Made by a program: the position numbers and the translations under genes | The notes under the pieces: generated by a model | What the model was told of the DNA's origin: nothing | What the model saw: only the letters and a program-made list of their open reading frames with translations | The model's database searches: none | In this document: positions 50,087 to 61,762 of the stretch, piece by piece | Position numbering within the stretch: the first letter of the stretch is position 1 | Layout of the letters: each line of letters starts with the position of its first letter | Origin: Serinibacter arcticus | Lineage (GTDB): Bacteria; Actinomycetota; Actinomycetes; Actinomycetales; Beutenbergiaceae | Assembly: GCF_003121705.1 (NCBI RefSeq) | Contig: NZ_PYHR01000002.1 | Span: 3,410,001 to 3,474,000 of the forward strand | Length of the DNA: 64,000 nucleotides | Direction: 5' to 3'

Positions 50087-51274
50087 CTACCCCCGGGCCC
50101 TCTCCTCGTCGCGGTCCGACGAGGTCGAGGTCGCCGCCTCGACAGCCTCCTTGATGCGGGCCTCGACCGCGAGGTCGCGACGACGACGCACGCGTCGCCG
50201 CAGCAGCAGTCCGCCGACGAGGAGGACGATCGCGGCCAGCTGGGACCACGGGAGGGTCCATGCCGAGTAGGTGACCTGCGCCTGGGGCAGGTCGCCCGGG
50301 ATCTCGTCCGCCCCCACGGTCGTCGGGACGACGGTCAGCGTGCCGGTCGTCCGGAACGTCGGCCAGGTCCGCGGTGCCACCGTGGTGACGACGGACTGCC
50401 GGGGCAGGATCTCGTCGTGGGTCTCCGCCACGCTGCTCCGACCGGTTCCCAGGACACCGGCCTGCTCCACGGTCTCACCCGACCCGAGCCGGACGTTCCC
50501 GGTGTTGGCGACCGTGTAGGTGACCGTGAGCGTCCCGGCCGCGAACGGGTTCCACGACGGGCTCCAGCGGATCTCGTCGACCACGGGTTCCAGCGTCGGC
50601 GCGAGATCGCCGGTGACGCGCAGGTGCGCCCGGACGCCGACCCGGCTGACCATCTGGACCTCCCCGTCGGGGCTCTGGGCGAGCTCCGCGACGATGCCTG
50701 CCGGGTGGTCGCCCGGGGTGGCCTCGCCGGGGACGGTGATCGTGACAGGAAGGACGACCGTGGACTCCGGGGCGATCTCGAGGGTGATCCCGCCCCCGTC
50801 CCGCGGGGCGGCGTTCTCGATCGCACCGATCTCGATCCAGGAGCCGCTGCCGTCCGTCTGCGGTTCGCCGGGAGGGACGAGGTCGAAGGCGCCGTCCTCG
50901 GTGACGGTGCCGTCGCTCGCGTAGACGTCGAAGGTGACGGCCTGCGGGCTGAAGTTCGTGACGGCGACGTGGTCCGTCGCCGCGGTCCCGGGGTCGATCC
51001 CGTGGCGCAGCGAGACGCGGGGGTCCGGACCCTCGGCGGTGGCGGGGGAGATCGTCCAGGTGACCGACGCTCCCGCCCCCGCCTCGGCGCTCGCTGCCGC
51101 GGCGCCCTCGTCCGCCGGCGCCGCGCCGGCCGGGGCGGTGAGCGCCACGGAGGTGAGCGCGACGGAGGTGAGCACCACCGTCGGCACGATGATGAGCCGC
51201 GCGCGGCGGACCGTGCCGAGCGCTCGCGAGCGGAGGGTCGTCCGCGAGGTGGGATGGGGGATGGCTCGCGACAT
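50087..51274 (-). CDS. DUF916-type WxL-partner surface protein (peptidoglycan-binding)
   Basis: 395 residues; GAGGAG precedes ATG 51272-51274. A long N-region with signal/anchor (LIIVPTVVLTSVALTSVAL), then a beta-rich extracellular part: VTWTISPATAEGPDPRVSLRHGIDPG, TPGDHPAGIVAELAQ, RVGVRAHLRVTGDLAPTLE. Near the C-terminus a membrane helix (LAAIVLLVGGLLLRRRVRRRR) and a charged tail. This order matches WxL-interacting proteins of the DUF916/DUF3324 kind. It is divergent from the esterase whose C-terminus looks like a WxL domain, and shares operators with it. Confidence 0.82.
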   Translation of the reverse strand: MSRAIPHPTSRTTLRSRALGTVRRARLIIVPTVVLTSVALTSVALTAPAGAAPADEGAAAASAEAGAGASVTWTISPATAEGPDPRVSLRHGIDPGTAATDHVAVTNFSPQAVTFDVYASDGTVTEDGAFDLVPPGEPQTDGSGSWIEIGAIENAAPRDGGGITLEIAPESTVVLPVTITVPGEATPGDHPAGIVAELAQSPDGEVQMVSRVGVRAHLRVTGDLAPTLEPVVDEIRWSPSWNPFAAGTLTVTYTVANTGNVRLGSGETVEQAGVLGTGRSSVAETHDEILPRQSVVTTVAPRTWPTFRTTGTLTVVPTTVGADEIPGDLPQAQVTYSAWTLPWSQLAAIVLLVGGLLLRRRVRRRRDLAVEARIKEAVEAATSTSSDRDEERARG

Positions 51275-51350
51275 CGGATGGGCTCCTCACAGGTGCGGGC
51301 GGCCTGCCGGGAACCGCGTCGTCGTGGACGGGTTCGGCGGGCCGGGGCGA

Positions 51351-51366
51351 TCTACAACGTCGTAGA
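51351..51366. promoter_or_regulatory. LacI-type operator O1
   Basis: TCTACAACGTCGTAGA, an almost perfect 16-bp palindrome (one mismatched pair), nearest to the DUF916 gene. It is the exact reverse complement of O2. Confidence 0.75.
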
Positions 51367-51494
51367 AGCGACCGGTAGCAGTCTCGCCAGTTGCCGTCGG
51401 GGCGTCAAGAGGGAGTCGGGGGGAACTGCCTCGAGGAATCTCGAGCTCGACGGTTGACAGGTCCGCGAGGTGGGCCGACGATGGTCGCGACCCA

Positions 51495-51510
51495 TCTACG
51501 ACGTTGTAGA
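51495..51510. promoter_or_regulatory. LacI-type operator O2
   Basis: TCTACGACGTTGTAGA, the reverse complement of O1, about 92 bases before the esterase GTG and just after the candidate -10 box. Confidence 0.75.
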
Positions 51511-51526
51511 AGTCAGACGGGGGCGT

Positions 51527-51542
51527 TCTACATCGTAGTAGA
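51527..51542. promoter_or_regulatory. LacI-type operator O3
   Basis: TCTACATCGTAGTAGA; centre 32 bases from O2, about three helical turns, which suits two dimers of one regulator on the same face. Confidence 0.72.
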
Positions 51543-51601
51543 AGCGTCGTTCGACCCGTCCGCCCCACGGCGGTCTCGGGCCCCAACGAGAGGAATCAAC
51601 G

Positions 51602-54321
51602 GTGATCGACACTCGGAAGAATCGTCCCCCGACGGGACGTGCGGGAGGGGTGCGGCCGGGACGACGGCTGGCCGCCATGGCGCTCGGGGCGGGCCTCGTC
51701 CTCGCCGGGACCGCAGCGATCGGGGCTCCGGCCTCGGCCGCGACCCCCTGGCTGACCGTGGACGAGGACGGCTTCGCGCGGTTCTCGGTCTCGGTGACCG
51801 ACGTCGAGGCCGCCGTCGGCCAGGACGTCAGTCAGATCGTGGCCGAGGGCAACTTCGGCCCGTCGGCGAACTGGGCCGAGTTCGGCCTGACCATCAGCGG
51901 CGACCGTGCGACGGGGATCCTCGGACCCCTCGAGCCCGGGCACTACTACTACCAGGTGACGGCGGACGACACCCTCACCGTCAAGGACCCGACGAACTCC
52001 ACCTCCGTCGCCTCCGAACCGGAGTGGAGCACGTTCTTCGTGGCGGGCGAGGGCGCCGAGCTCATGGCCGACGCGCCCCAGGAGAGCCGCGGAGAGGTCG
52101 CGGAGATGACCTACCGCAGCTCGGTGGCCGGTCAGGACCGGAGCGCACTGGTGTGGACACCGCCCGGTTACGACGCCGACCGCGCCGAGCCGTACCCGGT
52201 GCTCTACCTGCAGCACGGCGGCGGTCAGAGCTACCGCGACTGGGTCGAGGTGGGCCGCGCCGCTCAGATCTTCGACAACCTCCACGCCCAGGGCTCCATC
52301 GAGCCGATGGTCGTCGTGATGGGCAACGGCAACGTCTCGAGCTTCGCCGACGAGCTCCTGCGCAACATCGTCCGCACGGCCGAGAGGCAGTACAACATCA
52401 GCTCCGACCCGGCGCAGCGTGCGCTGGCCGGGCTCTCGATGGGCGGTGGCCAGACCTTCGACGTCATGGTCTCGGACCCCGGGGAGTTCGCCTACCTGGG
52501 GACCTTCGGCGCGGGGCGGTTCAACAACCTCGACGCGCTGCCGGCCGAGGCCATCAACGCGGGTACCGCACTGCTGCGGTTGTACGTCGGCAACCCGACG
52601 GACGTCGCGTACAACGACGTCGCCGCGGCGCTGCCGAAGCTCGACGCCGCGGGTGTGCGCTACCAGTTCGACGGCGCCAACCCCGACGCCGGCCACAACT
52701 GGGACGCGTGGCAGGAGAACCTGATCGACTTCGCGCCGCGTCTGTTCGGCGGCGAGAGCCTGCCGGGGATGAGCCCGGGGCACACCGCGATCGAGGCTCC
52801 GTTCACCACACCCCCGTCCGGCACGACGCCCACGCCGTGGGTGTCGGAGGACGGCTACGTGACCTTCGAGACCTCCACCGAGTTCGCGAACGCCAAGCAC
52901 GTCACGGTGTGGGCCAACTGGGGCCCGAGCCACCTGTGGACGCGGGTCGAGCTCTCCAAGGTGGGTGACCGCTGGCGCGGCACCGTGGGTCAGCTGGAGC
53001 CGGGCTGGTACCACTACCGCCTCATCGTCGACCGGGTCGCGGTGAAGGACACCTCCAACCCGACCTCCGTCACCACCGAGCCGACCTGGAGCCAGTTCCT
53101 GGTGCCGGGCGAGGGTGCCCGTCTCGTGACGCCGGCCCCCGAGGGGGAGCGGGGCACGGTGGCGCCGATGGCCTACCCCAGCATCACGGGCCAGCAGCGG
53201 ACCGCGCTCGTGTGGACGCCCGTCGACTACGACGCCGAGAGGGCGGAGCCCTACCCCGTCCTGTACCTCCAGCACGGCGGTGGCCAGTCCTACACGGACT
53301 GGACCGAGATGGGTCAGGCCGCGAACATCCTCGACAACCACTACCGCGACGGCAACCTCGAGCCGATGGTCGTGGTGATGGGGAACGGCAACGTCCCGGA
53401 CTTCACCCGCGAGCTGAAGGAGAACATCGTCCCGACGGCGGAGGCGACGTTCAACATCTCCTCCGAGCCGGCGGACCGGGCGCTGGCCGGACTCTCCATG
53501 GGTGGCGGTCACACCCTGACCGCCTGGCGGACCAACCCCGGCATGTTCTCCCACATCGGGGTGTTCTCGGCCGGGTACTCCGGCAACGGCTCGGATCTCG
53601 ACGTCGACGCGCTCAACGCCGGGACCACGCTGCTGCGGCTCTACAACGGCAACGTCACGGACTTCACCTACGGCGGAGTCGTCACCATGCTGAGCGTCTT
53701 CGACCGGGTCGGGATCAAGTACGAGTTCGACGGCTGGTTCGAGGGTCCGCACGGGTGGGACACCTGGCAGTACGCCCTGGCGGACTTCGCTCCGCGCCTG
53801 TTCACCTCGGCCACGGCCGAGGACGGCGCGGGGATCCCCGTCGAGGCCACGGTGCCCCCGATCGCCCAGGGGCACCTGTCGATGACGGTCGCCGCGTACG
53901 GGGAGAAGGTCGTCCTCGGCGAGGCGCTCAACGTCGGTGACCGGCTGCGGCTGGCCGGGGCGCTGCCCCAGCTGACCGTCACCGACTCCCGCAGCGAGCA
54001 GCAGGCCGGGTCGAGCGGCTGGGCCGTCGCCGGCCAGTCGAGCGATCTGACCGGTGGGTCGCGGGAGATCCTCGCCGGCCACCTCGGGTGGACGCCGAAG
54101 GTCCTCACCCCCGCGAGGGCGTGACCGCGGCTGCTCCCGCGGCCACGGTGCTCTCCGGTGGCACGGGTCTGGCGGCTCCGAAGCGGCTGGCGCAGGCCGC
54201 TGCCGAGGGCCGCTCCGGGTCGACGGCGCTCGGCGCCGACCTGCTGCTGGAGGTCCCCGTGGACACGGTCCAGGGCACCTACAGGGGCACGGTGACCGTC
54301 AGCCTCTTCCCGACGGACTGA
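51602..54321 (+). CDS. Secreted double esterase (feruloyl-esterase-like) with C-terminal WxL-like domain (frameshift at 54108-54112)
   Basis: The frame 51602-54124 plus the in-frame remainder to 54321, if one C is added at 54108-54112, gives about 906 residues. A signal peptide (MALGAGLVLAGTAAIGAPASA) is followed by two similar modules. Each has a small beta-sandwich domain (WLTVDEDGFARFSVSV; WVSEDGYVTFETST) and an esterase-D-type hydrolase with nucleophile Ser in ALAGLSMGGG, a YPVLYLQHGGGQSY motif and a late His (HNWDAW; HGWDTW). The C-terminus (LPQLTVTDSRSEQQAGSSGWAVAG ... LGWTPKVLTP ... YRGTVTVSLF) resembles a WxL wall-binding domain. GTG start with GAGAGG upstream. Confidence 0.85.
54108..54112 (+). 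other. Frameshift site in esterase: C run one base short
   Basis: The frame reads KVLTPARA and stops at 54124. One extra C in 54108-54112 gives KVLTPREGVTAAAPAATV and continues 65 codons to TGA 54319-54321, ending in the strand YRGTVTVSLF typical of a WxL C-terminus. Confidence 0.85.
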
Positions 54322-54363: not shown

Positions 54364-54488
54364 GCCGTGCCGGTTCCTCGTGACGGGCGTCCGCGACGTC
54401 GGGCTCCTCCCGCGAGGGGGCCGCAGGAGCGGGGCCGTAGCATGACCGGGCGGACCGTCGGACGGTCTCCGCGTCGATGGAGGTCGGA

Positions 54489-55595
54489 ATGACTGAGGAA
54501 CACGCGCCGGTGCGCGTCCCCGCCACCATGCGCGGTGCCGTCACCATGCGCGAGGTCGCGGAGCGGGCCCAGGTCTCCCTCAAGACCGTCTCGAACGTGG
54601 TCAACGGCTACCCCTACATCAGGGCCACGACCAAGGAGCGGGTCGAGAGGGCCATCGAGGACCTCGGCTACCAGGTCAACCTGTCGGCCCGGAACCTGCG
54701 ACGCGGCCGGACCGGAATCATCGGGCTCGCGGTGCCCGACCTCGCGGAGCCGTACTTCGGCGAGCTCGCCGGCATGGTCGTGCGCGCCGCGGACGAGCGC
54801 GGTCTGACCGTCCTCGTCGAGCAGGCGGCCGACCGCCGCCAGGAGCTCGACGTGCTCACGAGCGCCCGGCGGTCGCTGACCGACGGCCTGCTGTACTCGC
54901 CGATCGCCGCCAGCGTCGAGGACCTCGACGTCAGCACGCATCCCTACCCCCTGGTGCTCCTGGGGGAGCGGACCTTCGGCGTCGGGGTGGATCACGTCTC
55001 GATGGCCAACCTCGAGGGCGTGCGGGAGGCGACGCGGATGCTCCTGGCCTCCGGGGCGCGTCGGATCGCCGTGCTCGGCGTCCCGCCGGTGGAGGACAGG
55101 CGGCCCCCCGGCGAGCTGAGCGACCTGCTCGAGCGCGACGCCTCCTTCACGTCGGACTCCGCGGCGCTTCGCCTCGAGGGGTACCGGCGCGGGATGGCCG
55201 ACGCGGGGATGGCGGTGGAGCCCGAGCTCCTCCTGCCGCTCACGTCCTGGCGGCGGTCTGCGGCCGCTGACCTGATGACGCGGACGGTCCGGGCCGGGGT
55301 GCAGTTCGACGCCGTCATCGGGCTGAACGACACGGTCGCGCTGGGAGCCCTGCACGCGCTCCAGCTGGCCGGGCTGCGGATCCCCGAGGACGTCCAGGTC
55401 GTCGGGTTCGACGACACCGAGGAGGCGCAGTTCGCCACCCCCGGTCTGACGTCGGTCTCCCCGAGCCGGAACCTCATCGCCGTCACGGGGGTCGAGCTGC
55501 TCCTCGAACGGATCGCGGGGCACGACGGGCCGCCGCGGCTCGTCGTGCCGCCCTTCGCGCTGGTCGAGCGCGGCAGCACGCAGCCGCAGCGCTGA
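54489..55595 (+). CDS. LacI family regulator (second island)
   Basis: 368 residues. GGAGG (54479-54483) before ATG 54489 favours it over ATG 54477. HTH TMREVAERAQVSLKTVSNVV, hinge ARNLRRGRTGIIGLAVPDL, then the effector domain with an extra segment VEDRRPPGELSDLLERDASFTSD, and VVGFDDTEEAQFATPGLTSV at the end. It lies between the esterase and the importer and is the obvious candidate to bind the five TCTAC..CG..GTAGA palindromes on both sides. Confidence 0.92.
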   Translation: MTEEHAPVRVPATMRGAVTMREVAERAQVSLKTVSNVVNGYPYIRATTKERVERAIEDLGYQVNLSARNLRRGRTGIIGLAVPDLAEPYFGELAGMVVRAADERGLTVLVEQAADRRQELDVLTSARRSLTDGLLYSPIAASVEDLDVSTHPYPLVLLGERTFGVGVDHVSMANLEGVREATRMLLASGARRIAVLGVPPVEDRRPPGELSDLLERDASFTSDSAALRLEGYRRGMADAGMAVEPELLLPLTSWRRSAAADLMTRTVRAGVQFDAVIGLNDTVALGALHALQLAGLRIPEDVQVVGFDDTEEAQFATPGLTSVSPSRNLIAVTGVELLLERIAGHDGPPRLVVPPFALVERGSTQPQR

Positions 55596-55669: not shown

Positions 55670-55687
55670 TCTACATCGATGTGCAGA
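55670..55687. promoter_or_regulatory. LacI-type operator O4
   Basis: TCTACATCGATGTGCAGA, with perfect core ACATCGATGT (55673-55682); the right arm is imperfect. Upstream of the ABC importer. Confidence 0.7.
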
Positions 55688-55692
55688 AGAGG

Positions 55693-55721
55693 TCGACGGA
55701 TCTTCTCCATCGATGTAGAGT
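55693..55721 (+). promoter_or_regulatory. Candidate promoter with operator O5
   Basis: TCGACG (55693-55698), 17 bases, TAGAGT (55716-55721) is a plausible promoter. TCTCCATCGATGTAGA (55704-55719), a palindrome with one mismatched pair, covers its spacer and -10. O4 and O5 centres are about 34 bases apart, like O2 and O3. Confidence 0.6.
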
Positions 55722-55795
55722 CGCCGCAGAGATCGACGCTCACCGAGGAGCGTCGTCGCCCGAGAGGCGCTGAGGGCCGAGGAGGGTCCGACCAC

Positions 55796-56692
55796 GTGAA
55801 ACGAATTCTGTACTCGCAGAAGCTGGCGCCGTACTTCTTCATCATGCCGTTCCTGATCACCCTGGCGATCTTCTGGCTGGTGCCCCTGCTGCGCTCGTTC
55901 GTGATGAGCACGCAGGAGGTGCTGTACGGCGAGGCCACCAGCGTCGGGATGAAGAACTACCAGCAGATGTGGAACGACCGCGTGTTCTGGCAGGCGATGT
56001 TCAACAGCCTGCGCTACATGGTCCTCACGCTGCTGCTGCTCATTCCGATCCCGATGGCGCTGGCGGCGATCACGAACGCGAAGTTCGGCGGCGAGCGGTT
56101 CAAGAACATCTTCAAGTCGACGATGTTCGTCCCCGCCCTCACCTCCGTGGTGGTGGCCGGCATCATCTTCCGGCTCATGTTCGCCGAATCGGAGAGCGCG
56201 CTCATGAATCAGGTGGTCGGCTTCTTCGGCTTCGGACCCGTGAGGTGGCTGCGGGAGGACATTCCGGGACTCGTCGCACTCCTGCTGCTGGCGCTCTGGC
56301 GCTGGACCGGTGTCAACATGATGTACTTCCTCGCCGGGATGCAGTCCATCTCGAAGGACTACTACGAGGCGGCCTCCCTCGACGGTGCGGGCAAGGTCGC
56401 GCAGTTCTTCCGGATCACGATCCCGAACCTCAAGCCGACCATCGTCTACGTCACGACGATCAGCGTGTACGGCGGGCTGGCGATGTTCCTCGAGAGCTTC
56501 ATGCTCTACGCCGGGAACCAGTCGCCCAACAACCAGGGTCTGACGATCGTCGGGTACCTGTACCGCAAGGGGATCGAGGAGAACAACCTCGGATTCGCCT
56601 CCGCCGTCGGCGTGGTTCTGCTGGCTCTCATCATGATCATCAACATCACCCAGCTCACTGCCAGTGGCATGTTCCGGAAGGAGGCGCGATGA
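55796..56692 (+). CDS. ABC sugar permease (MalF-like)
   Basis: 298 residues from GTG 55796, with GAGGAGGG about ten bases upstream. About six helices (LAPYFFIMPFLITLAIFWLVPLL first); EAA motif YEAASLDGAGKVAQFFRITIPNLKP. No long N-terminal tail. It overlaps the next permease by ATGA. The ATPase is again not encoded here. Confidence 0.92.
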   Translation: MKRILYSQKLAPYFFIMPFLITLAIFWLVPLLRSFVMSTQEVLYGEATSVGMKNYQQMWNDRVFWQAMFNSLRYMVLTLLLLIPIPMALAAITNAKFGGERFKNIFKSTMFVPALTSVVVAGIIFRLMFAESESALMNQVVGFFGFGPVRWLREDIPGLVALLLLALWRWTGVNMMYFLAGMQSISKDYYEAASLDGAGKVAQFFRITIPNLKPTIVYVTTISVYGGLAMFLESFMLYAGNQSPNNQGLTIVGYLYRKGIEENNLGFASAVGVVLLALIMIINITQLTASGMFRKEAR

Positions 56693-57558
56693 GCGCCCAG
56701 ACCTCCAGGAAGCCTGCGGTCCGCCCCGTCACCCAGAGGACGGCGCGGGTGGTCCAGGCCGTCTTCCTCGCCCTGATCTCGCTGATCTCGCTGGTCCCGC
56801 TGGCGGCGATCGTCATGGGGACGTTCCAGAACGGCAGCGACGTCATCCGCAACGGCATCACGTTCGACGTCGACCTCTCGACGCTCTCGCTGGAGAACTA
56901 CGTCCTGCTCTTCACGGACTCGGGCCTGTACTTCCGGTGGTTCGCCAACACGCTGGGACTCACGGTCGCCCAGGTCGTCGGCACGCTGCTGGTCAGCTCG
57001 TTCGTGGCCTACGGATTCGCCATGTACCAGTTCAGGGGGAAGACGGCTGCCTTCATCGCGGTGCTGCTCCTGATGTCGACGCCGTTCGAGATGTTGATGC
57101 TGCCGCTCTACGTCCAGGTCAACGAGCTGAACCTCTCGGACAGCTACGCCGTGATCGTGATCCCCTTCCTCGCCGCCGCCGTGACGATCTTCTTCTTCCG
57201 GCAGTACTTCCTGGGAATCCCGAAGGAGCTGCTGGAGGCCGGACGTGTCGACGGTGTGACGGAGTTCGGAATCTTCTTCCGTCTGATCATGCCCATCTCC
57301 CGGCCCGCGCTCGCCGCGATGGCGATCCTCAACGGGATGCTCGCGTGGAACAACTTCCTGTGGCCGCTGCTCGTGCTCCGCAGCCCGGAGAAGTTCACGC
57401 TGCCGATCGGCCTGAACACGCTGCTGACCCCGTACGGCAACAACTACGAGCTGCTGATCGTCGGCGCGTTCTTCTCGCTCATCCCCATCCTCGTTCTTTT
57501 CCTCGCCTTCCAGCGATTCTTCGTCGAAGGCATGACAGCAGGCGCGGTCAAGGGATGA
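56689..57558 (+). CDS. ABC sugar permease (MalG-like)
   Basis: 289 residues. About six helices (VVQAVFLALISLISLVPLAAIVMG first), EAA-type loop LLEAGRVDGVTEFGIFFRLIMPIS, and end FFVEGMTAGAVKG, the MalG-type signature. Coupled to the permease before it. Confidence 0.92.
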   Translation: MSAQTSRKPAVRPVTQRTARVVQAVFLALISLISLVPLAAIVMGTFQNGSDVIRNGITFDVDLSTLSLENYVLLFTDSGLYFRWFANTLGLTVAQVVGTLLVSSFVAYGFAMYQFRGKTAAFIAVLLLMSTPFEMLMLPLYVQVNELNLSDSYAVIVIPFLAAAVTIFFFRQYFLGIPKELLEAGRVDGVTEFGIFFRLIMPISRPALAAMAILNGMLAWNNFLWPLLVLRSPEKFTLPIGLNTLLTPYGNNYELLIVGAFFSLIPILVLFLAFQRFFVEGMTAGAVKG

Positions 57559-57590
57559 CCGCACCGAAACCCTCGAAGGAGAGAGTAGAT

Positions 57591-58946
57591 ATGTCGAAGA
57601 AGCGAATCCTGACCTCCGTGGCCGGCCTCGGCCTGGCAGTCTCCCTGGTCGCCGCGTGCGGTGGAGGTGGCGGGGGCACCGGTGGGACCGGGGGCTCCGG
57701 CGGGGAGACCAACGCCGACGGCGCCACACCGGTGGAGATGTGGGTCTTCGCCGAGCTCCACGCCGAGTACTACGAGGAGATGGCGCAGCAGTGGAACGAG
57801 AAGAACCCTGACGAGCAGATCGAGCTGAACGTCATCGTCTACCCCTACCAGGACATGCACAACAAGCTGCAGCTCGCGGCCAACTCCGGTCAGGGGATGC
57901 CCGACGTCGTCGACATCGAGGTCAACAAGTTCGCGAACTTCGTCAAGGGCTCCAACCCGCCCCTGTACGACCTGACGGAGGCGGCGGAGCCGTACGCGGA
58001 CGACATCGTGCAGGCGCAGCTCGACCTCTACAGCCGTGACGGCAACCTGTACGCCTACCCCACGCACGTGGGCGCGTTCGTGGCGTTCTACAACACGGAG
58101 CTGCTCGAGGGTGCGGGGGTCGACTACACGACGATCGAGACGTGGGAGGACTTCGAGGCCGCCGGCGTCACGTACAACGAGGCCACGGGCAAGGCCTTCG
58201 GCGTCGCCAGCACGTCGGTGTTCTTCCAGGAGCCCCTCATGGTCGCCCAGCTCGGCGGGCAGATCTTCGAGGACGACGGGCTGGGTGCCGTCTCCATCGA
58301 CACCCCGGAGATGACGGAGGTCATGGAGCAGATGGCCGGCATGAAGGAGGCCGGGGCCATCTCGACGATCCCCGGGGCCAGCCCGGACGACGAGGAGGCC
58401 TTCGGCGCCATCAACCGCGGTGACTACGCGGCCATCGTCTACCCGGCCTGGTACACCTCCCGGTTCGTGGACTACATGCCGGACCTCGCGGGCAAGATCG
58501 CGATCGCCCCGGCCCCGGCCCCGGCCGACGCCGAGGTGCTGACGATCGGTGGCGGTGGCACGGGAGCCGCCGTCGCCAAGGACTCGCCCGTCGCCGAGCT
58601 CGCGGCCGACTGGCTGTCCTTCGCCAAGCTCTCGCCCGAGGGCAACGTCGCGGTGTGGGAGGTCCTCGGCTTCGACCCCGTGAACATGTCGGTGTGGGAG
58701 GACACGGCGGTCACCCAGGACCCGGAGAACAAGTTCAACCAGTACTTCACGACGAACCTGTTCGACGTGCTGAACGAGGTCAAGAGCGGGATCGGCCACT
58801 TCGAGTCCTTCGCCAACCCGAACCTGCCCGCCGTGGACAACCAGTTCCGCACCGTCACCCTGAACGAGATCTACGAGAACGGCGTGGATCCCGCCCAGGC
58901 CCTGGCCGACTCGCAGAGCGACCTCCAGAACGAGCTCGGCGAGTGA
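57591..58946 (+). CDS. ABC sugar-binding lipoprotein (family 1)
   Basis: 451 residues. GAAGGAGAG precedes ATG 57591; an in-frame ATG at 57555 is less likely. Lipobox SLVAAC with C23 and a Gly-rich linker. Binding domain: QQWNEKNPDEQIELNVIVYPYQDMHNKLQLAA, MPDVVDIEVNKFANFV, AGVDYTTIETWEDFEAAG, VYPAWYTSRFVD. Unlike most binding proteins it follows rather than precedes the permeases. Ligand probably an arabinose-containing oligosaccharide because GH51 follows. Confidence 0.92.
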   Translation: MSKKRILTSVAGLGLAVSLVAACGGGGGGTGGTGGSGGETNADGATPVEMWVFAELHAEYYEEMAQQWNEKNPDEQIELNVIVYPYQDMHNKLQLAANSGQGMPDVVDIEVNKFANFVKGSNPPLYDLTEAAEPYADDIVQAQLDLYSRDGNLYAYPTHVGAFVAFYNTELLEGAGVDYTTIETWEDFEAAGVTYNEATGKAFGVASTSVFFQEPLMVAQLGGQIFEDDGLGAVSIDTPEMTEVMEQMAGMKEAGAISTIPGASPDDEEAFGAINRGDYAAIVYPAWYTSRFVDYMPDLAGKIAIAPAPAPADAEVLTIGGGGTGAAVAKDSPVAELAADWLSFAKLSPEGNVAVWEVLGFDPVNMSVWEDTAVTQDPENKFNQYFTTNLFDVLNEVKSGIGHFESFANPNLPAVDNQFRTVTLNEIYENGVDPAQALADSQSDLQNELGE

Positions 58947-59076: not shown

Positions 59077-60588
59077 ATGACCCCCGCTCGTCTCACGCTC
59101 GACCCCGCCTTCTGCGTCGGTCCCGTCCGCCGCCGCACCTTCGGGTCGTTCGTGGAGCACCTCGGACGCTGCGTCTACACCGGGATCCACGACCCGGCGC
59201 ACCCGAGCGCCGACGCCGACGGCTTCCGGCAGGACGTCATCGACCTGACGCGCGAGCTCGGCGTCTCCACCGTGCGCTACCCGGGCGGCAACTTCGTCTC
59301 CGGCTACCGCTGGGAGGACGGCGTCGGCCCGCTCGAGAACCGCCCCACGCGCCTCGACCTCGCCTGGCACTCCTCCGACCCGAACACGGTCGGCGTCGAC
59401 GAGTTCATGAGGTGGGCCAGGAAGGCGGGCGTCGAGCCGATGATGGCGGTGAACCTCGGCACGCGCGGCGTCCAGGAGGCGCTGGACCTGCTCGAGTACT
59501 GCAACGTCGGCAAGGGCACGGCTTTGGCGGACCGACGGCGGGCCAACGGCGCCGAGGAACCTCACGGCATCCGCATGTGGTGCCTGGGGAACGAGATGGA
59601 CGGCCCGTGGCAGATCGGGCACAAGACCGCGCACGAGTACGGCCGACTGGCCGCCGAGACGGCGCGCGCGATGCGCATGATCGACCCGGGCCTCGAGCTC
59701 GTCGTCTGCGGCTCGTCCGGCTCCGGCATGCCGACCTTCGGCGCGTGGGAGCAGACCGTGCTGACGGAGACCTACGAGCACGTCGACCACGTCTCCGCCC
59801 ACGCCTACTACTGGGAGGAGGACGGCGACCTCGACTCCTTCCTGGCCTCCGCCGTCGACATGGACGGCTTCATCGACGCGGTGGTGGCGACCGCCGACGC
59901 CGTGCGGGCGGCCGGCAAGCACACGAAGCGGATCAACGTCTCCTTCGACGAGTGGAACGTCTGGTACCAGAAGCGGGCCGAGTCCAGGCCGCCGACGGGC
60001 GACGACTGGCCGATCGCACCGGTCCTGCTCGAGGACACCTACACGGTGGCCGACGCCGTCGTCGTGGGCTCGCTCATCATCAGCCTGCTGCGCCACACCG
60101 ATCGTGTCCACGCCGCGTCGCTGGCCCAGCTGGTCAACGTCATCGCACCGATCATGACCGAGCCCGGCGGGCGCGTCTGGAAGCAGACGATCTTCCACCC
60201 CTTCGCGCAGGCCTCGCGCCTGGCGCGCGGCGAGGTGCTGCGCCCGGTCATCGCCTCCGACACCTACGCCACGGCGAAGTTCGGCGACGTCCCGCTCGTC
60301 GACGGCGTCGCGACCTACGACGCCGAGACGGGCGAGACCGTCGTGTTCGCCGTGAACCGCTCGACCACGGACACGGTCCCGCTCGCCGTCGAGCTCCGCG
60401 CGCACGGCATCACGCTGATCGAGGCGACGAGCTACGCGCACGCCGACCCGCGCTGGTCCGCGAGCGTCGATGACGACGACACCGTGCTGCCGCGTCCCAA
60501 CGGCTCGGCCGCGATCACCGCGGACGGCGAGGTCACCATGGACCTGCCACCGGTGTCCTGGAACGTGCTGCGGCTCGGCCGCGCGTGA
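59077..60588 (+). CDS. Alpha-L-arabinofuranosidase, GH51 (second copy)
   Basis: 503 residues; GAGGAGAACC precedes ATG 59077. No signal peptide. HLGRCVYTGIHDP and STVRYPGGNFVSGYRWEDGVGP; acid/base E173 in WCLGNEMDGPWQ, nucleophile E292 in SFDEWNVWYQ. It differs clearly from the GH51 at 35316 and belongs to the WQIG/EWNVWY subgroup. With an upstream secreted esterase it fits removal of arabinose side chains freed of feruloyl groups. Confidence 0.93.
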   Translation: MTPARLTLDPAFCVGPVRRRTFGSFVEHLGRCVYTGIHDPAHPSADADGFRQDVIDLTRELGVSTVRYPGGNFVSGYRWEDGVGPLENRPTRLDLAWHSSDPNTVGVDEFMRWARKAGVEPMMAVNLGTRGVQEALDLLEYCNVGKGTALADRRRANGAEEPHGIRMWCLGNEMDGPWQIGHKTAHEYGRLAAETARAMRMIDPGLELVVCGSSGSGMPTFGAWEQTVLTETYEHVDHVSAHAYYWEEDGDLDSFLASAVDMDGFIDAVVATADAVRAAGKHTKRINVSFDEWNVWYQKRAESRPPTGDDWPIAPVLLEDTYTVADAVVVGSLIISLLRHTDRVHAASLAQLVNVIAPIMTEPGGRVWKQTIFHPFAQASRLARGEVLRPVIASDTYATAKFGDVPLVDGVATYDAETGETVVFAVNRSTTDTVPLAVELRAHGITLIEATSYAHADPRWSASVDDDDTVLPRPNGSAAITADGEVTMDLPPVSWNVLRLGRA

Positions 60589-60901
60589 GTCGAGGCGGCG
60601 CGCCGGGCGGGTGCGTCGCGGCACGGGCGGTGCGACGGCGGTGCTCGCGGTCGCCGTCGTGACCCACCTCGTGCGCGGGAAGGTGTGGTGCGCAACCCCC
60701 TCGCGGGTGGTGCGCACCCCCCTCGCGGGTGGTGCGCACCCCCCTCGCGGGTGGTGCGCAAGCCCCTCGCCGGTGGGTGGGCGACGGCGGCCGTGCCCTC
60801 GTCCGCCCGGAGGCCCTAGCCTGGGGGCACCCCCGCGATGGACCCCGGCGCGACCGACGCCCGACCCGCCCCGCACCCGCCCTCTCCCACCAGGAGCCCC
60901 C
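60589..60901. other. Intergenic region with tandem repeat
   Basis: 313 bases without a recognisable gene between GH51 and the transglutaminase-like gene. Its middle is the 22-bp tandem array at 60685-60773. No clean terminator for GH51 is visible. Confidence 0.6.
60685..60773. repeat. Four tandem 22-bp repeats
   Basis: Units begin at 60685, 60707, 60729 and 60751. Each reads GTGGTGCGCA, then a C-rich block and CTCGCGG. The units at 60707 and 60729 are identical; the first and last differ by one to three bases, and the last is one base longer. Each junction contains GGTGCGCA(C)C, close to a palindrome. Confidence 0.9.
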
Positions 60902-61762
60902 ATGCGCCGCAGCGTCTCCTCCACCCTCGAGCTGACCCTGAGCGAGGGCGAGGTCCAGCTCGCGTTCATGGTCGCCGTCGCGCGCGTGCCCGGGCTGCGG
61001 ATCGACGAGCGGCTGACCATCCACCTGGGCGACGAGCTCGTCGAGGCGACCGAGATCCCGGCGCCGCACAACGGCGTCGTGCACGACCTCACCGTGAACC
61101 CCGGCGTCTCGGGCACGCCCCTGGTGCTGAACTACCACGCCATCGTCGAGACCAACTGGGACGAGGTCGCCGCCGCGCACGACGACGCCGAGGGGGAGGA
61201 GATCGTCGGCGAGGCCGGCGGCCCCATCGACCTGCTGATGTACCTGCGCCCCAGCCGGTACGCCGAGTCCGACCGCTTCTTCGGCACCTCTCGCGCCGAG
61301 TTCGCGGGTCTGGCCGGGCGCGAGCTGGTGCTCGCCGTCGCCGACTGGGTCAACCACCACCTGCGCTACACGCCGGGCGCGAGCCGTCCGACCGACGGCG
61401 CCGTCGAGACCCTCCTGGCGCGCCAGGGGGTGTGCCGCGACTTCGCGCACGTCGCCGTCGCGCTGCTGCGGGCGCTCGACGTCCCCGCGCGCCTCGCGGC
61501 CGTCTACGCCCCCGGCCTGTTCCCGATGGACTTCCACGCCGTCGCCGAGGCCTGGGTCGAGGGCGGGTGGCACGTCATCGACCCGACCCGGCTGGCCCCG
61601 CGCCAGACGCTCGTGCGCGTGGCGACGGGCCGCGACGCCTCCGACACGGCCTTCCTGTCCAGCTACGGCGCCCGCCTCACGCTCGACCGGATCAAGGTGC
61701 TCGCGACGTCGGACCCCTTCCTCCCGACCGACGACCACCGCTCGATGCTGCGCGTCCCCTGA
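60902..61762 (+). CDS. Transglutaminase-like family protein
   Basis: 286 residues; AGGAGC lies before ATG 60902. The N-terminal beta domain (STLELTLSEGEVQLAFMVAV) is followed by the transglutaminase-like core with Cys in ARQGVCRDFAHVAVALLRAL, His in DFHAVAEAWVEGGWHVIDPT and Asp in the same motif. No signal peptide. These cytoplasmic proteins act as proteases or amidases or have unknown roles. Expected to be functional, since the triad is complete. Confidence 0.88.
   Translation: MRRSVSSTLELTLSEGEVQLAFMVAVARVPGLRIDERLTIHLGDELVEATEIPAPHNGVVHDLTVNPGVSGTPLVLNYHAIVETNWDEVAAAHDDAEGEEIVGEAGGPIDLLMYLRPSRYAESDRFFGTSRAEFAGLAGRELVLAVADWVNHHLRYTPGASRPTDGAVETLLARQGVCRDFAHVAVALLRALDVPARLAAVYAPGLFPMDFHAVAEAWVEGGWHVIDPTRLAPRQTLVRVATGRDASDTAFLSSYGARLTLDRIKVLATSDPFLPTDDHRSMLRVP

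Follow-up and report, generated by a model that had tools for sequence, protein, structure and literature searches.

A tandem esterase and a WxLIP-like membrane protein as a candidate surface-display pair in Serinibacter arcticus, with many counterparts in Actinomycetota

In the 4.06 Mb genome of Serinibacter arcticus (assembly GCF_003121705.1, contig NZ_PYHR01000002.1) we analysed a stretch of 64,000 nucleotides, positions 3,410,001 to 3,474,000 of the forward strand, which is called the window below. Within it, two divergently oriented open reading frames (ORFs), with 327 bp between them, encode a double esterase and a membrane protein that resembles the WxLIP proteins of Enterococcus. A first-pass annotation made from the letters alone had read the two genes as divergent, and the ORF positions confirm this, with the partner on the minus strand and the esterase on the plus strand. 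In our judgement the two are likely to form a cargo-and-receptor pair for display at the cell surface. Comparisons were made with 24 genomes of the same family and with 297 genomes of the order. Profile A2 was built from 18 same-family tail domains of about 150 amino acids (aa), taken from ORFs beside partner genes, and A3 is a profile of the partners; E denotes the expect value. Published papers are cited for those parts of their text that were available. The features of the pair, in window coordinates, are as follows.

50087..51274, minus strand: ORF of the WxLIP-like partner, 395 aa, with a signal peptide, two immunoglobulin-like (Ig-like) domains, a transmembrane stretch at about residues 340-359 and a basic tail (hydropathy)
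50597..51067, minus strand: first partner domain (DUF916/PGBD-like), residues ~70-226, from alignment A3, the model and conservation
50255..50596, minus strand: second partner domain (Ig-like, at the DUF3324/HBD position), residues ~227-340, from the model and Foldseek
51602..54124, plus strand: tandem esterase ORF as assembled, 840 aa, with an N-terminal hydrophobic stretch (22-44), two repeats and part 1 of the WxL-like domain
51761..52756, plus strand: esterase repeat 1 (GLSMGG, GHNWDAW), from sequence motifs
52826..53767, plus strand: esterase repeat 2 (GLSMGG, PHGWDTW), from sequence motifs; solved ferulic acid esterase chains are nearest
53855..54112, plus strand: WxL-like domain part 1, in the esterase frame (A2 positions 2-82, E 3.2e-24)
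54112..54321, plus strand: WxL-like domain part 2 and stop, in the neighbouring frame (A2 positions 83-149, E 7.7e-17)

Near 54,110, where five C stand in a row (54108-54112), the reading frame of the esterase is broken; it continues in the neighbouring frame to a stop codon at 54319-54321. Matching of the tail was done on the raw genome, with no base restored. A2 found the two halves in successive frames, as listed above; a separate local run on the window tail gave positions 2-81 and 83-149, and the match stops two residues ahead of the stop codon. Since the halves abut in successive frames, the domain is complete in the sequence and is crossed by a single frame break, in line with the first-pass annotation, which had read the C-terminus after restoring one C. 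Since the break falls at a C run, and since there are 13 further esterase ORFs whose tail is uninterrupted and ends LFPVD or LFPID, it probably stems from a recent mutation or from an error in the assembly. Unless it is an assembly error, the break would leave the tail half made.

The tail lies at the C-terminal end of an esterase with an N-terminal hydrophobic stretch, and its landmarks were counted over 155 aligned rows, reduced to 146 distinct domains of at least 115 positions each. WxL domains carry D-x-R-G ahead of the first motif (PMC1534035); D-x-R is kept in 144 of the 146, and the window has DSR, followed by S where the published motif has G. The first-pass annotation had pointed to the blocks SSGWAVAG and LGWTPKVL and to the ending YRGTVTVSLF as signs of a WxL domain. 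All three are present, and SSGWAVAG does occupy the position of WxL motif 1, whose first Trp is found in 139/146 domains and which reads W-x-[LVIM] in 127/146 (WAV in the window). LGWTPKVL is not a second WxL motif and is better seen as a mark of this branch, with the LGW-x-P block in 129/146 and its Trp in 145/146. At the end, YRGTVTVSL lines up in register with YxxxLTWxL, the distal motif described for WxL domains (PMC5817068), Y-x3-[LIV]-T being kept in 134/146 domains, but Val replaces the Trp; four of the 146 have a Trp three places further on. Because the register agrees while the distal Trp is replaced, we call the domain WxL-like and not WxL, and on its sequence the window tail reads as a WxL-like domain at the C-terminus of an exported esterase.

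Relatives narrow the distance to the classical family. In the 297 genomes PF13731 (WxL) matches 17 at E 1e-3, five of them over the cut-off, and at least three of those (G188, G193, G234) match on stretches also found by A2; at least 13 of the 23 PF13731 places listed in the order coincide with A2 places. The domains at L128, L130 and L131 are forms nearer to the classical pattern. L130 and L131 (genomes G140 and G234) are stretches close to classical RGT..WTL and lie near a diverged WxLIP-like gene. The tail was modelled with a predicted local distance difference test score (pLDDT) of 92.4. Weak matches of the window pieces to GAP1-N2, DUF2244 and DUF4402, all under the cut-off, were set aside, as was an hhalign result of 99% between A2 and A6, since A6 contains L128, which is itself an A2 match. 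No relation between A2 and A3 was found by hhalign.

The partner had been described as a DUF916/WxL-partner membrane protein with a peptidoglycan-facing domain, to be checked against DUF916 and DUF3324. Fold and profile agree with the WxLIP type; as to the Pfam domains, PF06030 (DUF916) stays under its cut-off at 16.9 bits against 27.3 (E 0.0066; 19.1 bits in the genome search) and PF11797 (DUF3324) gives no match up to E 10. A3 searched against the PDB finds WxLIP1 of E. faecium at E 1.9e-4. In the partner model (mean pLDDT 84.3) two Ig-like domains are followed by a C-terminal helix. The three PDB chains that match it best are all WxLIP of E. faecium (9i1y, 9i25; E 2.7e-11), one of the matched entries being titled as bound to long WxL; the Foldseek alignment spans 288 columns against a solved WxLIP of 267 residues. 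A partner paralogue in the same genome (C2:1320094) passes PF06030 at 28.4 bits. It belongs to a second pair (L035, C2:1318000-1327600), in which a 274-aa ORF with the same end domain is followed by the partner paralogue. A third PF06030 place (L003, E 0.8) lies in a multi-span membrane protein, presumably with CBS-like parts, and hence is not a partner. We assign the partner loop 124-163 to the place of the WxLIP hairpin that, according to a published prediction, occupies a gap of WxL (PMC10599100). G128, G144 and W146 of this loop are invariant in 18/18 partners, and we treat it as weak evidence, since its mean conservation (0.40) is under that of its flanks (0.56 and 0.61).

Outside the window the family holds 18 partner genes, the one in G015 being in two pieces. 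Partner and A2 domain are present in the same 15 of the 24 family genomes and both are missing from the other nine, in one of which A3 adds a weak fragment (24.6 bits). As A2 was seeded beside partners, presence of the domain in those 15 is partly by construction, but its absence from the other nine is not. At all 18 other family partner loci the gene directly upstream, on the same strand, ends in the ~150-aa domain. In the order, A2 matches 69 of the 297 genomes, 54 of them outside the family. One best place was listed for each of the 54 except G140, G154 and G234, and at 45 of these 51 domain loci the partner lies downstream on the same strand; among the six misses, L076, L085 and L097 are at contig ends and L077, L080 and L096 are real. 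We also started from the partner, taking the best 80 loci among the matches listed in named organisms (Microbacterium, Cellulosimicrobium, Cellulomonas, Micromonospora, Streptomyces, Nonomuraea, Thermobifida and others). There the domain is upstream on the same strand in 75 and downstream in one; none was found at four, two of which are at contig starts, and no divergent pair occurs among these 80. Over the 77 domains examined, the partner is downstream in 67, with a median gap of 132 nt, and on the opposite strand in none. The domain-led and partner-led sets overlap (G017 is L141, G019 is L146 and G276 is L149), so the counts are not additive. They rest on gene adjacency, whereas a published cluster definition is two WxL per WxLIP (PMC10599100).

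The divergent layout, which had been offered as a sign of pairing, lends no such support: every relative examined that has both genes carries them on one strand. What supports the pairing is the order of the genes, their joint presence or absence, and the fold. The proposal that tail and partner belong together is right in substance, and the earlier interpretation as a whole is partly supported. It had stated that WxL pairs are best known in Firmicutes, and more than 91% of 938 known WxL sequences are from that phylum (PMC9772566), but the WxL-like branch turns out to be frequent in Actinomycetota as well. One locus, L132, is titled Planococcus sp. APC 4015; at 70.5% guanine plus cytosine, and placed among actinobacteria by the partner tree, it is probably mislabelled.

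A number of results weigh against a WxL-type pair. The PF13731 match foreseen by the first-pass annotation did not appear in either window tail piece, searched separately and unrepaired, or elsewhere in the genome, and NCBIfam found no WxL in the window pieces. Six of the 18 seed domains match PF13731 with an E of 0.1 or lower, the lowest being 2.8e-5, and at least three of its 23 listed places (G101, G198, G229) fall in genomes with no A2 match. Strict W-x-L occurs in 28/146 domains and the distal Trp in 0/146, with Leu, Val or Ile there in 145. No solved WxL is among the 50 best PDB matches of the tail model, the best being GH123 (E 9.7e-4) and pilin-type folds, and PDB sequence searches with A2, A6 and L128 returned no WxL chain. 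The match of the partner to WxLIP is moderate, with a template modelling (TM) score of 0.42 by query and 0.58 by target, a root-mean-square deviation of 7.2 and 12% identity. Lastly, L077, L080, L096, L126 and L127 carry the domain with no partner nearby, the last two being extra domain copies in G004.

From the sub-threshold Pfam scores, the general beta-sandwich matches that Foldseek gives the tail, and the moderate TM score, it could be argued that the tail is an unrelated beta-sandwich resembling WxL and that the likeness of the partner to WxLIP is a general Ig-like one. We regard this as very improbable: D-x-R, motif 1 and the distal motif stand in register, relatives exceed the PF13731 cut-off on A2 stretches, and the tail is constantly paired with a protein whose profile and fold both indicate WxLIP. 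A second alternative is that the tail attaches to the wall by itself, the partner helping it to fold or assemble without being a lasting anchor. In favour of this, the five domain loci just named lie in genomes (G151, G179, G031, G004) that encode a partner elsewhere, and there are matches of the partner model to CfaA-type chaperones (E 7.5e-8) and, weakly, of the tail model to pilin-type subunits (E 2.8e-3 to 1e-2). The partner, however, has the C-terminal hydrophobic stretch and basic tail of a WxLIP, and WxLIP chains supply its three best structural matches; a helper role seems to us unlikely, and a receptor for the tail remains our preferred reading of the partner.

The cargo in the window was described earlier as tandem feruloyl-esterase-like domains, and this holds: PF00756 matches over two stretches (E 1e-28), and G-x-S-x-G-G and a late His are present in both repeats, which are 52.5% identical to each other. 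Among solved chains named ferulic acid esterase, repeat 2 matches 8bbp at E 8e-42, and an NCBIfam xylanase/feruloyl esterase model covers repeat 1 at 189.8 bits, far under its 1200-bit cut-off. We take the protein to be of the CE1 type, a label also found in the name of 7b5v. Ferulic acid esterases of that type (PDB 8bbp, 6rzn, 7b5v) likewise have an N-terminal module and an esterase domain per unit, with Ser/His motifs, whereas the window protein has two units in tandem plus a surface tail. The N-terminal module is presumably CBM48-like, the match to AMPK1_CBM being sub-threshold. The esterase pieces contain no LPxTG or sortase signal that we could find, and the N-terminal hydrophobic stretch is the single one in them. 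Not every relative keeps the catalytic motif. Among the 13 other esterase ORFs the serine motif is in both repeats of seven, in one repeat of L143 and in neither of five, so not all need be active esterases of this type. A second homologue of the tandem esterase, with 52% identity, is found in G015 (L216:951-3032, minus strand), where it follows the binding protein within the same group of genes; the match ends short of the tail, and A2 finds one tail only in that genome.

In other loci the same domain is attached to different proteins. Pfam was run at E 1e-3 on 70 of the 77 cargo ORFs (sets A4 and A5; the other seven, those of L126-L131, were left out). It found esterase in 10, Metallophos in nine and the purple acid phosphatase N-domain in nine, probably the same nine, followed by alkaline phosphatase in seven, HtaA in seven, GH18 in two, and GH53 and GDPD in one each. 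Within the 51 cargo ORFs of L075-L125 the counts were nine for metallophosphatase, six for alkaline phosphatase and seven for HtaA. HtaA binds haem, and the list hints at the gathering of phosphate and haem as common uses of the cargo.

The remaining features of the locus are listed below.

51351..51368, no strand: operator-like palindrome 1, in the shared intergenic region (pattern derived from that same region)
51495..51512, no strand: operator-like palindrome 2, intergenic (pattern derived from that same region)
51527..51544, no strand: operator-like palindrome 3, intergenic (pattern derived from that same region)
54477..55595, plus strand: LacI-family regulator, at the position of the partner in four relatives (PF00356, E 9.3e-14; synteny)
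55679..58946, plus strand: ATP-binding cassette importer with two permeases and one solute-binding protein (PF00528, PF00528, PF01547); the first ORF has an uncertain start
59077..60588, plus strand: alpha-L-arabinofuranosidase, GH51-type by look (PF06964, E 5.5e-44, C-terminal domain only)

The earlier description placed the esterase next to arabinose uptake and GH51. An importer and an arabinofuranosidase do adjoin, although arabinose is only a putative substrate of the predicted importer and Pfam supports the C-terminal domain of an arabinofuranosidase only, the GH51 label being given by look. A transglutaminase-like protein at 60470-61762 (PF01841, E 1.8e-20) overlaps the end of the arabinofuranosidase ORF.

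Fourteen window proteins were used as synteny queries; GH31 and DUF624 were out of frame, so their absence is uninformative. In L212-L214 the order is LacI (minus), esterase (plus), partner (plus), two permeases and binding protein, and L216 is likewise, with inserts. L215 has LacI and the importer on one strand and the esterase and partner on the other. Importer orthologues are near the esterase in all five same-family regions examined but not in L217, outside the family, which has a different importer plus an arabinofuranosidase. In the window the order is partner (minus), esterase (plus), LacI (plus), permeases and binding protein, so that LacI and partner are swapped relative to L212-L214; inversion of the block from LacI to partner, and then of the esterase alone, would yield this order. 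Of the 143 rows of the partner tree 12 are esterase-linked, and four changes account for their distribution, against a shuffled mean of 11.7, with 0 of 500 shuffles as low; the window partner is in an 18-row group that holds all 12. As the esterase-linked partners cluster, and the window partner lies within this group, it is probably the native partner, moved. Two points tell the other way: support for the 18-row group is 89, below the 95 mark (the smallest starred group in the tree has 30 rows), and the rows nearest to the window by path, L137 and L136, are not esterase-linked.

The window thus differs in layout from every relative and has a frame-broken tail, both of which count against a working pair here, and the pair could be decaying in this strain, the break having cut the tail and left the esterase simply secreted. 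A relative shows a comparable state: in G015 (L029 / L216) an insert of 1.4 kb splits the partner and one of 1.3 kb splits the esterase. The first contains an ORF of 464 aa that resembles an ISL3 transposase, the second an ORF of 342 aa that resembles an IS3 integrase. Against decay, the remainder of the domain and its stop are retained in the next frame, the break coincides with a C run, no interruption is seen in the partner ORF and the tail is unbroken in the 13 other ORFs; we hold decay to be possible but doubtful. It would in any case concern this strain and not the pair as such, and is compatible with a display pair.

None of the three operator-like palindromes between the divergent genes recurs elsewhere in the window within three mismatches, and a shuffle control is not fair here, the pattern having been taken from the tested region. 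Related palindromes lie ahead of the first permease, at about 55669 and 55708. With palindromes in both places, one LacI control over the pair and the importer is plausible from the sequence.

From the tail homology, the constant pairing, the partner fold, the esterase family and the importer conserved beside the esterase, we infer how a display pair may work here. The esterase would be exported, carrying an actinobacterial WxL-like domain at its C-terminal end, and the divergent gene would encode its own receptor, a WxLIP-like membrane protein. The outer Ig-like domain of the receptor would hold the tail at the wall, probably by a beta-strand that one of its loops lends, as in the models of WxLIP with WxL from Enterococcus. 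So tethered, the double esterase may cleave feruloyl-type esters on an arabinose-decorated plant polymer near the importer, which would take up the released sugars under the neighbouring LacI regulator. More broadly, we lean somewhat towards a general surface-display system of Actinomycetota, not named in the literature and records consulted. In it, a WxL-like tail that lacks the distal Trp, in most cases encoded next to a WxLIP-like receptor of its own, would be the common socket for interchangeable proteins that gather nutrients (esterases, phosphatases, HtaA-type proteins, glycosidases), and strand lending would link tail and receptor, like pilins and their chaperones.

The nearest described systems are the csc clusters of Lactobacillus plantarum (CscC, large, with WxL2; CscA), for which a role in plant carbohydrate use has been proposed (PMC1534035). 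The window has in common with them a large secreted protein with a similarly sized C-terminal domain, the D-x-R ahead of motif 1 and a DUF916 membrane protein in the cluster. Here, in contrast, one cargo typically goes with one partner, as far as can be said without a systematic search for small WxL and LPxTG members, and the window branch has no distal Trp, an extra LGW-x-P block, an enzyme as cargo and a host in Actinomycetota. With the WxLIP of E. faecium (PMC10599100; PDB 9i1y, 9i25) the window partner shares a signal peptide, two Ig-like domains and a C-terminal transmembrane stretch; it differs in its DUF916 score under the cut-off, in the lack of a DUF3324 match and in the 12% identity of the structural alignment. 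DUF916 genes of Actinomycetota have been reported beside Ang-2 proteins and metallophosphatases (PMC12537917); the latter are also frequent cargo here, and the available part of that paper describes no WxL-like domain on the neighbours. We found no published description of a WxL-like domain in Actinomycetota, in a search made mostly without subscription papers. On a Cellulosimicrobium plasmid the partner is annotated as DUF916 and the domain protein before it as 'hypothetical protein' (A2, E 2e-39), and the corresponding domain protein of a Streptomyces plasmid has a name taken from a RICIN domain (A2, E 3e-18).

We therefore regard the window pair as a WxL-like variant, new in its kind of host and cargo, and as one of many WxL-like display pairs in Actinomycetota. 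If this is true, these bacteria would hold enzymes at their surface without a sortase signal, proteins now called hypothetical, as in the Cellulosimicrobium example, would gain a role, and the simple two-gene pairs may serve for probing the binding between WxLIP and WxL.

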